Below the pieces are notes generated by a model, which searched no databases, was not told the DNA's origin, and was given only the letters and a program-made list of their open reading frames with translations. A DNA stretch of 35,338 bases, from assembly GCA_026993805.1 (NCBI GenBank), contig JALWSA010000065.1, positions 1 to 35,338 on the forward strand. Direction: 5' to 3'. Position numbers and translations under genes: made by a program. This DNA is from Thermotogaceae bacterium. Its GTDB lineage: Bacteria; Thermotogota; Thermotogae; Thermotogales; Thermotogaceae. Positions 18,747 to 24,081 of this stretch are shown here, piece by piece. The stretch's first letter is position 1; each line of letters starts with the position of its first letter.

Positions 18747-19499
18747 ATGCTATACCTTGAAACCTGGAATTTTCCAGCGGATATCAACATGGCATTGGAT
18801 GTGATTTTGGGAGAGTACTCCTCCAGAGTAAAAAAACCCATATTGAGGCTTTACAGCTGGGAAAAGCCTTCTGTTTCTATAGGCAGGCATCAGTCCGTGA
18901 GAGAACTCGATACAGACTTTATGGAAAAAGAAGATCTGCCGTGCGTGAGAAGACCGACTGGCGGCAGGGCGGTTCTCCACCACAATGAAATAACGTACTC
19001 TGTAGCATTTCCAAAAGGAACTGATGAATACGAGATGAGTGTTCTTGCTCTTTATAAGAGGCTCTCGGAAATTTTCAAAAAAGCTTTCGAAAGCATTGGA
19101 ATAAGCGTTTCATTCAGCCATGGAAAAGGAAGCCTTAAAAACCCTTCTTGTTTTTCATCAAGCGCGAGGTACGAGCTTCTAATAGATGGCAAAAAATTTT
19201 TGGGAAGCGCACAGGTTAGAACGAAAGATTACGTCCTCCAACATGGCAGTATATTGCTAAAACCCAACTGGACATTAGTCGCCAGTGTTTTTAAAAGTGT
19301 CACGGAAGATATGATTTCCAAAAATGCTATCGGAATATTCTCTGTCAAAAGGCTTGAAAAAAGAAAAATAGTGAATGCTATCAAAAAAGCCTTTGATGAA
19401 AGCTACAGCATCGAAGAAATGGATTTCTATCAGCTCCTAAGGCTTTTAAGGGAAGCTGAGAAAATAAGGGGGCGGTTTTCCTGTCAAAGCTCTATGTAG
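18747..19499 (+). CDS. Lipoate/octanoate transferase family protein, LipM-like
   Basis: A 250-residue member of the biotin/lipoate protein ligase fold. RRPTGGRAVLHHNE (69-82 region) is the lipoyl-AMP/octanoyl binding signature. The segment NPSCFSSSARYELLIDGKK...GSAQ places Cys135 where LipM-type octanoyltransferases carry their catalytic cysteine, so transfer of octanoyl from acyl carrier protein to a lipoyl domain (often GcvH) is more likely than ATP-dependent lipoate ligation; LplA activity stays possible. No lipA or gcvH is in the window. ATG 18747 lies behind GAGGTGAGAG. Confidence 0.8.
   Translation: MLYLETWNFPADINMALDVILGEYSSRVKKPILRLYSWEKPSVSIGRHQSVRELDTDFMEKEDLPCVRRPTGGRAVLHHNEITYSVAFPKGTDEYEMSVLALYKRLSEIFKKAFESIGISVSFSHGKGSLKNPSCFSSSARYELLIDGKKFLGSAQVRTKDYVLQHGSILLKPNWTLVASVFKSVTEDMISKNAIGIFSVKRLEKRKIVNAIKKAFDESYSIEEMDFYQLLRLLREAEKIRGRFSCQSSM
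19466..19472 (+). promoter_or_regulatory. Ribosome binding site deciding the CTG start of rsmI
   Basis: AAGGGGG lies eight bases before CTG 19481. In this frame there is a stop at 19457-19459 and no ATG, GTG or TTG before the conserved start of RsmI, so this site points to the CTG. Confidence 0.6.
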
Positions 19500-20161
19500 T
19501 CGCAACACCGATTGGAAACCTAAACGATATCACATTAAGAGCCTTAGAAGTGCTTAGAGAAGCTGAGCTTCTGATAGTGGAAGACAAAAGAAGAACAGCT
19601 ATTTTGCTGAACAAATTTGAAATAGGAAGAAAAGATATGATACCTATAGCTGAAAACATTTCGGAGAAAAAGGTGGATTGGATAATAGAGAAGATAAAGA
19701 ATGTGAACATAGCTTGCCTTGTCAGCGATTCCGGGATGCCAGTTATATCGGATCCCGGGTACGCTATAGTGAAAAGGTGTTGGGAAGAAGGAATAGAGTT
19801 AGATGTGGTTCCTGGGCCAACCGCTCACACGGCGGCTCTTGCGGTCAGCGGTTTTCCAGCAAATAAATACGTATTTCTGGGATTTTTACCCAAGAAATCA
19901 AAAAGGAGGAAACTCCTCAAAAGCTTATGTTCAGCATCGGAAATAGATACCATAGCCTTTTACGAATCTCCTTATAGGTTCTTAGAAACACTCCAAGATA
20001 TATTGGATATATTTGGAAACGTTGAGATCTTCGTTGGTAGGGAAATGACAAAAATACACCAGGAATTTTTTAAAGGAAGGGTCAAAGAAGCCGTAGAACA
20101 TTTCAAGGGGGGAGTGAAAGGAGAAATAACGGTGATCTTGAGGAGGGATATCCAGTGTTGA
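19481..20161 (+). CDS. rsmI: 16S rRNA (cytidine-1402-2'-O) methyltransferase, probable CTG start
   Basis: SAM-dependent 2'-O-methylation of C1402 in 16S rRNA (tetrapyrrole methylase fold). From CTG the protein would read M-SKLYVVATPIGNLNDITLRAL, the canonical RsmI opening, followed by VEDKRRTAILLNKFEI, SDSGMPVISDPGY, VVPGPTAHTAAL.SGFP and FLGFLPKK, 226 residues in all. The first ordinary start, GTG 19550, would remove the essential ATPIGN motif. The CTG overlaps the lipM stop region by 19 bases. At 226 residues it lacks part of the C-terminal region of the E. coli enzyme. A sequence error hiding a normal start is the main alternative. Confidence 0.88.
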   Translation: MSKLYVVATPIGNLNDITLRALEVLREAELLIVEDKRRTAILLNKFEIGRKDMIPIAENISEKKVDWIIEKIKNVNIACLVSDSGMPVISDPGYAIVKRCWEEGIELDVVPGPTAHTAALAVSGFPANKYVFLGFLPKKSKRRKLLKSLCSASEIDTIAFYESPYRFLETLQDILDIFGNVEIFVGREMTKIHQEFFKGRVKEAVEHFKGGVKGEITVILRRDIQC

Positions 20162-21780
20162 GAAAAATCGTGACAGTCTTGATTCTCCTCACACTTTCTG
20201 TTTTTGCATATCAAGTCAAAGTTGTTACCAATGTTCCTGGAGTAAGCGTTTATCTGAACTCAAAACTCATGGGGATAACTGACGAAACCGGGGAGATCAC
20301 ATTTGACGCTACGGGGGCTGTAATCATACAAGCAACCAAACAGGGATATTGGCCGAGAAAGCTTCGCCTCGAAGCTAATATACAATTCGATAGGACATTC
20401 AAGCTCTTCTTTTACCCTGTATCAAGAGCATTCCTTGATACGGATCCCCAAGGAGCCGACGTTTTTATCTCCTATGGCGAATCTCTCATATACCTGGGTA
20501 AAACCCCTTACTACGGCGAGGTACCCATAGGAGAACACACTTTGGTCATTAGGAAAAAAGATTACCCTGAATTCAAAAGAAGTGTTGTCTTTAAAAGTCA
20601 AATACAGAAGATAACTCTTAAAATCCCGAACTACGGTTATTGTTATGTAAAAACAACTCCTGCGGCCTCAGTAGTGGTGGACGGTGTTTACAAGGGAGAT
20701 TCTCCTGTGGGATTCAAAATTGGCGTGGGTGAACATTCATTTGAATTCTACAAAGAAGGATTGCTTATAGGTAAAAATACCTTCAAAATAACGAGTGAAC
20801 CAACGGAGATTAACCTCAAATTAAGAGATATAGCCAAAATCAGCTTTCACAGCTATCCCGCTGGTGCACAGATGAAAATTGGTTCGAAAGTGTATGAACT
20901 GCCCGTTACCTTGAAGATAGTCGAGGGCGACTATCCGGTAGAGCTAAGCCTTCCAGGTTTTAAAACCCTGAAAAAAACGGTTACGATTTACAAAGACATG
21001 AAAACATTGACATTCAAGCTCGAGGAAGAAAAATACAGAGTCGTGATCCCCTTCAAAGGGGATATAGAGATAGATGGAAGAAGTTGGGAGAGAGGCCCGC
21101 TCACTACATATGTTAAAAAGGGCTTCCACATTCTTCATTTCAAGAACGATTATGGGGAGTGGTACAAGACTTTCTTCGTAACCACTGATTCGTCTTTAAC
21201 GATCGATACAGAGAAAGGAACAGTAATAATTCCAGACGTAGGAAGAATCGTTGTAAATGGAGTCCAGCTGATGACACCAGCTATAATGAATCTAAGCCCG
21301 GGTAAATACACCTTCGAAATGTTGGGAGTCAAGGAAACCATCGATGTGAAGAGCGGAAAAGTTGAGATGCTTCCCAAAGGCTTTGGTGCAGTCACAGTTA
21401 ACAGTTTCCCAGAAGGTCTTACGGTCTCGTTCGACGGGGAAGAATTCGTCACACCGGTGTTTTTGTATCCCTTGCCACCTGGTGAAAAGGAGATCATCTT
21501 CAAAAAAGGCTGCGCTACCTGGCACAAGACTGTGAAGATAAAGGAAGGAAATATTTCCTTTGTAAATCTCGAGATCCCTCTCAGTAACATTTTGAAAGTT
21601 CCAGATATCCGAAATTGTGAGATAATTGTTGACGGTGAAAAAATAGAAGAACTCGCAGATTTAAACATCGGTTTTCATTTGCTCGCTCTGAAATGTGGAA
21701 AGGTTATTGACATAGAACCTTTTTGCTATTCGGATAACGAAAGAGATCTACCCTTTCCTCTCGGAGGTGAAGCAAAATGA
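20155..21780 (+). CDS. Secreted multi-repeat PEGA-domain protein
   Basis: A 541-residue protein with an N-terminal signal peptide (about 1-18, LRKIVTVLILLTLSVFA) and then roughly eight PEGA-like beta repeats of 60-70 residues, recognisable by phrases such as TDPQGADVFIS...GKTPYYGEVPIGEHTLVIRK, TTPAASVVVDG...GDSPVGFKIGVGEHSF and NSFPEGLTVSFDGEEFVTPVFLYPLPPGEKEI. PEGA domains are usually extracytoplasmic and suspected to bind surface-layer or envelope components; no enzymatic motif is seen. No C-terminal anchor, so periplasmic or surface associated. GTG 20155 is preceded by AGGAGGG. It overlaps rsmI by seven bases and the next gene by four (ATGA). Confidence 0.82.
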   Translation: MLRKIVTVLILLTLSVFAYQVKVVTNVPGVSVYLNSKLMGITDETGEITFDATGAVIIQATKQGYWPRKLRLEANIQFDRTFKLFFYPVSRAFLDTDPQGADVFISYGESLIYLGKTPYYGEVPIGEHTLVIRKKDYPEFKRSVVFKSQIQKITLKIPNYGYCYVKTTPAASVVVDGVYKGDSPVGFKIGVGEHSFEFYKEGLLIGKNTFKITSEPTEINLKLRDIAKISFHSYPAGAQMKIGSKVYELPVTLKIVEGDYPVELSLPGFKTLKKTVTIYKDMKTLTFKLEEEKYRVVIPFKGDIEIDGRSWERGPLTTYVKKGFHILHFKNDYGEWYKTFFVTTDSSLTIDTEKGTVIIPDVGRIVVNGVQLMTPAIMNLSPGKYTFEMLGVKETIDVKSGKVEMLPKGFGAVTVNSFPEGLTVSFDGEEFVTPVFLYPLPPGEKEIIFKKGCATWHKTVKIKEGNISFVNLEIPLSNILKVPDIRNCEIIVDGEKIEELADLNIGFHLLALKCGKVIDIEPFCYSDNERDLPFPLGGEAK

Positions 21781-22892
21781 GAGTTAAAGCATTGCTGTCG
21801 TTTGTGGCAATATTTTTTGCAACTCTCGTACTGGCAGATGTAACTATCAAAGACGTTTCCCCGCTCATTCCAGAGCATGATGCCGTCATCTACATGGTGA
21901 GCAATGGCATAATGGAAACCGAGGATGGTTTTTTCAAGGGTGGAAAGATCATCACCAAATTCGACCTTGCTGTTTATCTCTATAGGCTCATAAAATTCCT
22001 GAAATTGGGTGGGACTGCCACACCACCAGCTACATCACTCGAAATAAGACCTCCCATGGAAGAGATCTTGAAAGTATTGGAATACTCCCCAGAAACCGGA
22101 GACTCTTTGAGATTGAGAAAGATCGAAAAACGGCTCACTTCCTTGGAAGATCTCATTTCTTCGATGAAAACGCCACCAGCTCACTATGAAACTCCTGTAA
22201 GCACAGCAACAGAAATGAGTGAGGAAGAATACAAAGACATTGCAACTGTTCTTAACGACTATGAAAAAAGAATTTCCGAACTCGAAGGAAAAATGTCCGA
22301 TTTAGAGAAGAGCATTTCCGGCGCTAAGACCGTTTCGGCTTCTTTAACTGAGTTGGAGATATCTGTGAAAAATAACGGTGCCAATTTAAAGAGTCTAATG
22401 AGCGATTTTTACAGTTTCTCTGAAAGAGTACGAGAAATAGAGAAAAATATGGAGGTTGTGAAATCCCAGCTTGAAATTCTTAAAAGCTCGGGAACACTTG
22501 GAAAAATTGTGGAGATGGAAAACACCATAGCCAATTTCAGAAAAGAGCTCACCAACTTGAAAGACCTGATAGGGGATTACGAAGGCATGTACAGAGAGGA
22601 AGAAAAACAGTGGATGGTTCTATATGCTGATAAAATCCACACACTCGAATCAAAATTCGCCACACTCGAAAGCACGTCCTTGAACAGCATCTCAGACTTG
22701 CGCGAGCAGGTTGAGGGACTCAAATCTGATATTAAAAGGCTAAATGATATATTATCTGCCGTCAAAGTTTCTCAGAAGATCGCCGAAGACGTCCAAGGAA
22801 TGGCTGCGATAATGGAGATAATGACAGTTGTGTCTGCAATAAGTGCTCTCATATCGCTTAGTGTTGCATTCTATTTGGCTTTCTTCAGATGA
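21777..22892 (+). CDS. SLH-like, coiled-coil, membrane-anchored envelope protein (Omp-alpha-like)
   Basis: A 371-residue envelope protein. Layout: signal peptide 1-20 with LVLA|D cleavage; one SLH-like domain (about 22-75, VSPLIPEHDAVIYMVSNGIM...KFDLAVYLYRLI); Pro/Thr-rich spacer; long heptad-rich coiled coil (about 105-345, repeated LEDLISSM, ISELEGKMSDLEKSI, LREQVEGLKSDIKRL); C-terminal hydrophobic helix 347-369. This is the plan of Thermotoga Omp-alpha, in which the SLH part binds the cell wall, a rod spans the periplasm and the C-terminus holds the toga. Identity with Omp-alpha itself is inference from architecture. Directly coupled to the PEGA gene. Confidence 0.8.
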   Translation: MRVKALLSFVAIFFATLVLADVTIKDVSPLIPEHDAVIYMVSNGIMETEDGFFKGGKIITKFDLAVYLYRLIKFLKLGGTATPPATSLEIRPPMEEILKVLEYSPETGDSLRLRKIEKRLTSLEDLISSMKTPPAHYETPVSTATEMSEEEYKDIATVLNDYEKRISELEGKMSDLEKSISGAKTVSASLTELEISVKNNGANLKSLMSDFYSFSERVREIEKNMEVVKSQLEILKSSGTLGKIVEMENTIANFRKELTNLKDLIGDYEGMYREEEKQWMVLYADKIHTLESKFATLESTSLNSISDLREQVEGLKSDIKRLNDILSAVKVSQKIAEDVQGMAAIMEIMTVVSAISALISLSVAFYLAFFR

Positions 22893-22905: not shown

Positions 22906-24081
22906 ATGAGAGTTATTGTGATAGTTCTCGACAGTGTGGGAATAGGTGAAATGCCCGATGCTAAGGAATATGGAGATGAGGGAAGCAACACATTGGTAAA
23001 CACGGCGAAAGCCGTGGGTGGTTTGAATATTCCCAACATGGCACGTCTTGGTGTTGGAAACCTTGCGGACATTCCAGGAGTACAGAAAGTAGAAAACCCA
23101 GAAGGTGTTTACGGGATAATGATGGAAAAAAGTCCTGGAAAGGACAGCACTACTGGTCATTGGGAGCTCATGGGAATAATACTGAAAAAACCTTTCGATA
23201 TATTCCCAAACGGTTTTCCCAAAGATCTCATCGAAGAATTCGAAAGAAGGACGGGAAGGAAAGTTATAGGAAACAAACCGGCATCAGGCACCGAAATCAT
23301 CAAAGAACTCGGGCCGGAGCATGAGAAAACAGGAGCTCTGATAGTCTACACTTCGGCCGACAGCGTATTTCAAATAGCGGCTCACAAAGAAGTGGTCCCC
23401 CTTGAAGAGCTCTACCGATACTGTGAGATAGCAAGACAGCTTTTGGACGAAGCTGGATTCAAGGTTGCAAGAGTCATTGCCAGACCTTTCATAGGAAAGT
23501 GGCCGAATTACACGAGAACTCCTGAAAGACATGACTACTCTTTACCACCCGAAGACGAAACGTTACTCGATATACTCAACGAAGAAGGCATACCTGTTTA
23601 TGGCGTTGGAAAGATTTACGACCTTTTCGCCGGAAGGGGCATAACAGAGTCCTGGAAAACCAAGGATAACATGGATGGTGTGGACAAGACGATAATGGTC
23701 ATGAAAGAAAAAAGACACAAATCATTCATATTCACGAATCTCGTCGATTTCGACACCAAATATGGCCACAGAAACAACCCAGAAGGCTACGCAAAAGCTC
23801 TTGAAGATTTCGACAGAAGACTGCCGGAAATAATAGATGCGATGATGGAAGAAGACGTTCTTTTCATAACCGCCGATCATGGCTGTGATCCCACGACACC
23901 TTCCACGGACCACTCCCGTGAAGTGGTGCCCGTCCTGGGATATGGAAACCCCTTGAAGAAAGGAGTGTACATAGGAGTACGCGAAACATTTGCGGATTTG
24001 GGCCAAACTATAGCCGACATATTCGATGTACGGCCATTAAAGAATGGAAAATCCTTCAAGATGTTAATATGGAAGGAGTGA
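22906..24081 (+). CDS. deoB: Phosphopentomutase
   Basis: Interconverts (deoxy)ribose-1-phosphate and -5-phosphate with two Mn ions (alkaline phosphatase superfamily). The 391 residues run [13 protein letters not shown] at the N-terminus, [10 protein letters not shown] at 78-87, [77 protein letters not shown]. The residue phosphorylated in Bacillus DeoB (Thr just after the Asp of GKDT) is Ser81 here. GAGGAGG lies eight bases before the ATG. It is 13 bases after the envelope gene. With PNP (block 2) it completes salvage of nucleosides to pentose-5-phosphate. Confidence 0.95.
24073..24081 (+). promoter_or_regulatory. Ribosome binding site deciding the CTG start of padR
   Basis: AAGGAGTGA closely matches the 16S rRNA anti-SD complement and lies four bases before CTG 24086. 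No ATG, GTG or TTG exists in the frame between here and 24224, well inside the DNA-binding domain. Confidence 0.7.

Follow-up and report, generated by a model that had tools for sequence, protein, structure and literature searches.

A PEGA-repeat gene adjoining a third Omp-alpha-type SLH gene in Thermotogota

The 35,338-nucleotide stretch of DNA analysed here (the window) carries a gene for a PEGA-repeat protein followed by a gene for an SLH protein, SLH3, which is a separate, old and monophyletic Omp-alpha paralogue, apart from OmpA1 and OmpA2. The adjacency of the two genes is not ordinary, as it is kept in Thermotogota while the flanking genes change. With a probability of roughly 0.4, and thus tentatively, we propose that the pair forms an envelope-connector module in which a PEGA rod docks on SLH3. 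The attachment of the toga to the cell is a long-standing question, for which two proteins have been characterised. SLH3 adds to these an old clade of its own, in which the ligand site is altered and a partner gene is conserved; several lineages also keep a regulator and genes for lipid transport beside it. Toga biology thereby gains a concrete set of testable genes, which is also relevant to the view of SLH connectors as an ancestral means of attaching the outer membrane.

The two genes and their products

The features of the locus are collected in Table 1. Both open reading frames were found where the original prediction had placed them, sharing the bases ATGA (20155-21780 and 21777-22892); the 5' end of the PEGA frame shares a further 7 bases with the 3' end of rsmI. 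The overlap had also been read as a sign of stoichiometric coupling, which did not hold. Of the 31 co-directional junctions of the window, 17 show some overlap, which measures exactly 4 bases in 8. Across 35 related loci, the spacing between the PEGA and SLH genes ranged from -74 to +34 and was exactly -4 in only 7, some overlaps being overstated because the simple ORF caller uses the first start codon. Since the 4-base overlap is common in the window and variable in relatives, it says nothing on stoichiometry.

Table 1. Coordinates of the PEGA-SLH3 locus and its flanks in the window
Feature	Coordinates	Strand	Details
lplA-like lipoate-protein ligase	18747..19499	+	upstream flank kept in families f1 and f2
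rsmI-like 16S rRNA methyltransferase	19550..20161	+	immediately upstream of the PEGA gene; neighbour only in families f1 and f2
PEGA-repeat protein gene	20155..21780	+	541 aa; GTG start (or TTG at 20158); from ORF and Pfam
Signal peptide of PEGA protein	20155..20208	+	residues 1-18; probable cut SVFA/YQ; helix 2-14 in model
Seven Ig-like beta-sandwich (PEGA) units	20209..21573	+	residues ~19-473; pLDDT mostly 83-96
C-terminal tail of PEGA protein with weak eighth unit	21574..21777	+	low confidence, pLDDT 29-61
SLH3 gene, third Omp-alpha paralogue	21777..22892	+	371 aa; from tree, synteny and Pfam of orthologues
Divergent SLH domain of SLH3	21846..22001	+	residues 24-75; no HWA Trp, TKFD replaces TRAE
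Coiled-coil stalk of SLH3	22098..22802	+	residues ~108-342
C-terminal hydrophobic helix of SLH3	22818..22880	+	residues ~348-368; putative membrane anchor, by analogy with Omp-alpha
deoB-like phosphopentomutase	22906..24081	+	downstream; neighbour only in genera g1-g3

The 541-residue protein matched the Pfam family PF08308 with an E value of 3.8e-31 (107 bits for a cut-off of 20.8) in four significant stretches. As had been predicted, its N-terminus is a hydrophobic signal, with the probable cleavage site given in Table 1. A model was obtained with AlphaFold2 on 34 orthologues (mean pLDDT 84.7). Seven of the eight repeats originally counted were confidently modelled; the eighth (residues ~485-514) is weak and degenerate, with a pLDDT mostly about 60 or lower. 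A lipobox was sought in the window protein and was absent, a possible one occurring in 1 of 35 loci. When the model was submitted to Foldseek, tandem Ig-like rods were retrieved, the best being the Bacillus anthracis TIE protein (6fwv, E 2.6e-8). Like other PF08308 proteins, the TIE protein shares with the window protein an array of small beta-sandwich domains in tandem; since the TM-score is low, the likeness is one of fold class only. The Sulfolobus SlaA/SlaB S-layer assembly (8qox) was among the weak Foldseek matches, and the SlaB chain turned up, again weakly, in sequence-profile searches as well. In SlaB of Sulfolobus, Ig-like domains, a coiled coil and a membrane helix work together. It differs from the PEGA-SLH3 pair in being archaeal and a single polypeptide. 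No description of a function for PEGA rods in Thermotogota was found in the literature searched.

The 371-residue SLH3 protein is headed by a signal peptide. With the window protein alone, the SLH domain stayed below the Pfam threshold and was not called; PF00395 was matched by 32 of 37 SLH3 orthologues. The family profile aligned with the SLH domain of Veillonella OmpM1 (8bys; query 10-76, residues 9-75, E 5.7e-9), and the four best matches of its first 101 residues were SlpA, Sap (twice) and OmpM1, each weak alone. The SLH helices (34-42 and 61-75) are present in the monomer model, whose pTM is low (0.31). Together with the 8bys match, they bear out the SLH fold expected from the sequence. 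Three longer helices follow in the model (108-131, 149-238 and 241-370). The coil showed a hydrophobic periodicity of 3.55, which was equally strong in 0 of 2000 shuffles, and at 0.15 nm per residue the stalk would measure about 35 nm. The last ~24 residues form a hydrophobic helix, with a median Kyte-Doolittle value of 2.39 in SLH3 and 2.38 in the canonical paralogues. A Foldseek search with the monomer returned generic coiled coils only, none with E < 0.001, and PDB sequence matches of the coil (myosin and others) were set aside as coiled-coil noise.

SLH3 as a separate Omp-alpha clade

In a tree of 96 SLH proteins, obtained by a quick search on alignments that are noisy in the coiled coil, the PEGA-linked proteins and six Trp-less unlinked ones fell on one side of a branch with an SH-aLRT support of 98.9. 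The OmpA1-type and OmpA2-type proteins fell on the other side. The SLH3 side comprised 45 rows; five of its six unlinked members are syntenic and one lies at a contig edge. The tree and the synteny rule out SLH3 as an orthologue of OmpA1 or OmpA2. The Omp-alpha plan first assigned to the second protein therefore stands, and the protein is homologous to that family, but as a third paralogue.

In the genome of the window, ompA1 lies beside tyrS on contig C19 and three tandem Trp-bearing SLH genes lie on contig C57, SLH3 being the one in the window. The T. maritima genome examined (G010) has three SLH genes, near 505 kb, 733 kb and 1705 kb. The gene near 733 kb is SLH3 and adjoins a MarR gene whose product matched Tm0710 (2a61) with an E value of 1.3e-89. 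The other two are at the positions expected for TM0477 and TM1729, which we take them to be. In Petrus et al. (2012), each species is credited with one or two OmpA homologues and, for T. maritima, only TM0477 (OmpA1) and TM1729 (OmpA2) are described (PMC3387000); two further Omp-alpha paralogues are mentioned by von Kuegelgen et al. (PMC9388160). In the literature searched, no discussion of TM0707-TM0712 was found, and the PEGA-SLH3 pair appears to have been overlooked by studies of the toga.

OmpA1 has a signal peptide, an N-terminal SLH domain homologous to that of SLH3, a long coiled coil and a C-terminal hydrophobic helix, as does SLH3. The two differ in clade, in the HWA Trp, which SLH3 lacks, in the SLH score, which is weaker in SLH3, and in their surroundings, SLH3 standing beside PEGA and OmpA1 in a tyrS-ompA1-ompB arrangement. 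OmpA2 also has the same plan; unlike SLH3, it groups with the canonical Trp-bearing paralogues, and it has no upstream PEGA gene in T. maritima. OmpM1 of Veillonella and SlpA of Deinococcus resemble SLH3 in having an SLH cap and a coiled-coil stalk; theirs is trimeric and spans the space from outer membrane to wall. However, they end in a beta-barrel and keep the SLH Trp, whereas SLH3 ends in a helix and has lost it.

In SLH domains that bind SCWP, a Trp (W34) and a Gly (G58) bind the sugar and the Arg of the TRAE motif binds the ketal-pyruvate (PMC10628300). The Trp motif was found in 0 of 40 PEGA-linked SLH proteins as against 50 of 58 unlinked ones, and six of the eight unlinked exceptions are members of the SLH3 clade; the W, GVILG and TRYE motifs are usual in SCWP-binding members and not strictly defining. 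The counterpart of the GYPDGTF stretch in SLH3 reads approximately ELDxNGNF. The ligand-site Gly is kept in 65%, with Pro in the remainder, and the position of the TRAE Arg is occupied by R (72%) or K (28%). Where the canonical paralogues carry Q or E, SLH3 has D in 88%, so that the usual TRYE motif reads TR or TK, then F, L or Y, then D. With the Trp lost, stacking of a sugar upon it is impossible in SLH3. As far as the residues tell, a basic groove may remain in the cap, and the loss of the Trp together with the retention of the basic TRAE residue makes it probable that the cap binds another wall ligand, or else a protein.

The pair and its neighbours across Thermotogota

Both proteins were searched in 60 relatives and in the genome of the window (61 Thermotogota genomes), and the neighbourhoods were read. 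PEGA lies directly upstream of SLH3 at 40 loci in families f1-f8 and in two genomes of f9, that is, in 42 of the 61 genomes and in nine families. The adjacency persists although protein identity drops to about 20%. It is the only one kept in all nine families, even where MarR, patatin and LptA lie elsewhere, and the flanking genes vary from family to family. Since rsmI adjoins the pair in f1 and f2 alone and deoB in g1-g3 alone, it is the two genes themselves that form the conserved unit. Conservation across the phylum had been named as the check on the original prediction; the pair is conserved, and the unlinking in relatives that would have spoken against it did not occur. A profile scan of named genomes returned only five loci, the family being too divergent for this approach.

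SLH3 is present in 56 of the 61 genomes and was not found in G006, G034, G053, G056 and G058. Since G006 also lacks deoB and lplA, the locus is probably missing from that assembly. In G043 and G044, a contig edge at the SLH3 locus leaves the presence of PEGA undecidable. SLH3 occurs without PEGA in 12 genomes, namely G003, seven Thermotoga (g5) and four of g12; G003, G007, G010, G031, G033 and G039 were read in sequence and the rest were judged from match positions. No PEGA orthologue was found elsewhere in those PEGA-less genomes tested. A 456-residue PEGA protein of Thermotoga was rejected as a moved orthologue: it is a DUF4384 protein in another context, with profile matches in repeat segments only. 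PEGA has been lost at least twice with SLH3 kept, in Thermotoga and its sister genus g4 and in the Thermosipho-type genus g12. The persistence of SLH3 without PEGA indicates that SLH3 can work alone and that PEGA is an accessory, not an obligate half.

A MarR regulator gene precedes PEGA in f2, f3, f8 and f9 (by Pfam on one protein each of f2, f3 and f8, and by shared sequence for the others). On the 3' side of SLH3, f3 and f9 have genes for a patatin, an unassigned protein and an LptA/LptC-like protein; in f9 the patatin was judged by sequence inspection and LptA by PF03968 matches. In f2, an LptA-like gene directly follows SLH3. The full order MarR-PEGA-SLH3-patatin-X-LptA is thus found in two families, and this arrangement suggests a link to outer-membrane homeostasis. 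In T. maritima, PEGA has been lost from a locus that still has MarR, SLH3, a patatin-like gene, an unassigned ORF and an LptA-like gene, and MarR is linked to SLH3 without PEGA in G003 and g12 as well. In the window, the MarR, patatin and LptA-like neighbours are gone from the locus. MurB is encoded near the SLH3 locus in f3.

The length of the SLH3 stalk followed that of paralogues in the same genome (rho 0.68, p 0.004, n 16, at the genus level and uncorrected for phylogeny), as expected if these connectors span the same gap. PEGA length falls as the SLH3 stalk lengthens (rho -0.64 at the genus level). With independent contrasts, the inverse relation gave r -0.44 (p 0.009) and was weaker in a rank test (p 0.11). 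The inverse relation rules out PEGA as a parallel rod or ruler matched in length to the stalk. The distances of PEGA and SLH3 gave a partial rho of 0.59, compared with 0.39 and 0.27 with a MarR control set of 27 rows, one of which (L092) is not MarR; this excess weakly supports co-evolution.

Readings of the pair

SLH3 is very probably an Omp-alpha-type connector with altered wall recognition. It would be exported and would form a long, probably trimeric, coiled-coil stalk. By analogy with Omp-alpha, SlpA and OmpM, its C-terminal helix would be anchored in the outer membrane and its SLH cap would face the peptidoglycan. The presence of OmpA2 in the toga fraction (PMC3387000) supports this connector class. 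PEGA would be a rod, soluble in the periplasm and built of about seven Ig-like domains, for which docking on SLH3, at its cap or its stalk, is the more likely role; it would widen or redirect the contact of SLH3 with the wall. Given the MarR gene before it in many relatives and the patatin and LptA-like genes after it in some, the module is likely to be co-regulated with lipid homeostasis of the outer membrane or with growth of the toga. A bolder version, which we consider unlikely, is that the SLH3 cap gave up canonical wall-polymer binding and that contact with the wall is provided or controlled by the PEGA rod, with MarR as the regulator and a coupling to the transport of outer-membrane lipids. 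If true, Thermotogota would possess a second, ancestral outer-membrane attachment system beside OmpA1/OmpB. Trp-less SLH3 also occurs without PEGA, so the loss of the Trp does not by itself demand PEGA.

The main evidence against an obligate complex is the repeated loss of PEGA with SLH3 kept. It lends some weight, short of making it our choice, to the possibility that the two proteins share a regulon and form no complex. SLH3 would then be a connector on its own, and PEGA an independent periplasmic protein, e.g. a rod binding glycan or peptidoglycan or an envelope assembly factor, within one MarR-controlled envelope operon with lipid-transport genes. The 12 genomes with SLH3 alone, the MarR-SLH3 linkage in T. 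maritima, G003 and g12, and the patatin and LptA-like genes, which in several families belong to the locus just as much, agree with such an operon. It leaves unaccounted for that only the PEGA-SLH3 adjacency is kept in all nine families and that the distances of these two proteins correlate beyond those with MarR, both of which argue for docking.

The docking reading places SLH3 in the outer membrane. A hydrophobic helix at the C-terminus does not by itself identify that membrane, and in f3 MurB is near the locus; the helix might instead sit in the cytoplasmic membrane, with stalk and PEGA reaching the wall from inside, e.g. to organise division or wall growth. We find this improbable, because the hydrophobicity of the helix equals that of the canonical paralogues, including the toga proteins OmpA1 and OmpA2 (PMC3387000), and the stalk length tracks theirs. 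Furthermore, a stalk of 35 nm would be too long for the space between inner membrane and wall, which is normally narrow. No better placed is the original proposal that PEGA belongs to the toga or to an amorphous layer on the outer side, anchored by SLH3. Ig-like arrays do make surface layers in Deinococcus and archaea (PMC10120038), and the SlaA/SlaB assembly was weakly matched by the PEGA model. However, PEGA lacks an anchor for the outer membrane, a translocation domain and a lipobox (the possible one in 1 of 35 loci apart), and since Omp-alpha-type proteins place only their C-terminal helix in the outer membrane, they would offer no docking site outside. Finally, overlapping genes are common in the window (17 of 31 junctions), as they would be if the two were ordinary operon neighbours brought together by the compaction of a small genome. 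That is very hard to reconcile with a pair which survives in nine families at ~20% identity with every other neighbour changing.

Split PEGA gene and patatin-like genes near SLH3

In the relative G021, the PEGA gene was divided into two ORFs, followed by an intact gene for SLH3, the third Omp-alpha paralogue; this split is due to a frameshift, to decay or to a sequencing error. In family f9, SLH3 was followed by a patatin-like gene and then by a second gene, which resembles a patatin in a degenerate state. In f3, the counterpart of this second gene had no Pfam match.

Other PEGA proteins

A second PEGA family (456-606 aa) combines PEGA with DUF4384, and its gene is preceded by a small gene whose product is exported or a lipoprotein; in Pseudothermotoga, the PEGA/DUF4384 gene is convergent with an OmpA2-type gene. 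The window's own genome encodes a PEGA protein with a C-terminal hydrophobic helix (contig C50), directly 3' of the gene for an exported protein resembling a Deg/HtrA protease. Short PEGA proteins of this type were also found in several relatives. Furthermore, PEGA is combined with a caspase-like Peptidase_C14 domain in an exported protein encoded on contig C3 of the window's genome.

Other SLH proteins

On contig C19 of the window's genome, tyrS and an OmpA1-type SLH gene are accompanied by the gene for an exported protein, which had no Pfam match and is a candidate for the OmpB porin of this species. Contig C57 of this genome carries three Trp-bearing SLH/coiled-coil/helix genes in tandem, and comparable trios were seen in G001, G002 and G006; this is a local expansion of OmpA2-like tethers. 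Two f3 genomes encode unusually long Trp-bearing SLH stalk proteins, about double the normal size or larger.

Coordinates of the loci and lengths of their products
Feature	Position	Length (aa)
Split PEGA gene, G021	L120:7508-8894	153 + 302
Patatin-like and second gene, f9	L194:1359-2925
Patatin-like and second gene, f9	L195:3749-5319
Second-gene counterpart, f3	L086:11870-12625
PEGA/DUF4384 locus	L124:7471-9502
PEGA/DUF4384 locus	L173:2258-4747
PEGA locus, C50	L199:4471-6767	295 (PEGA)
Peptidase_C14/PEGA, C3	L109:8437-11154	905
tyrS/OmpA1-type locus, C19	L108:7157-10778	314 (SLH); 447 (exported)
Tandem trio, C57:31801-34102	L107:8790-11922	320, 318, 334
Long SLH stalk, f3	L155:3686-6748	1020
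Long SLH stalk, f3	L159:3681-6236	851
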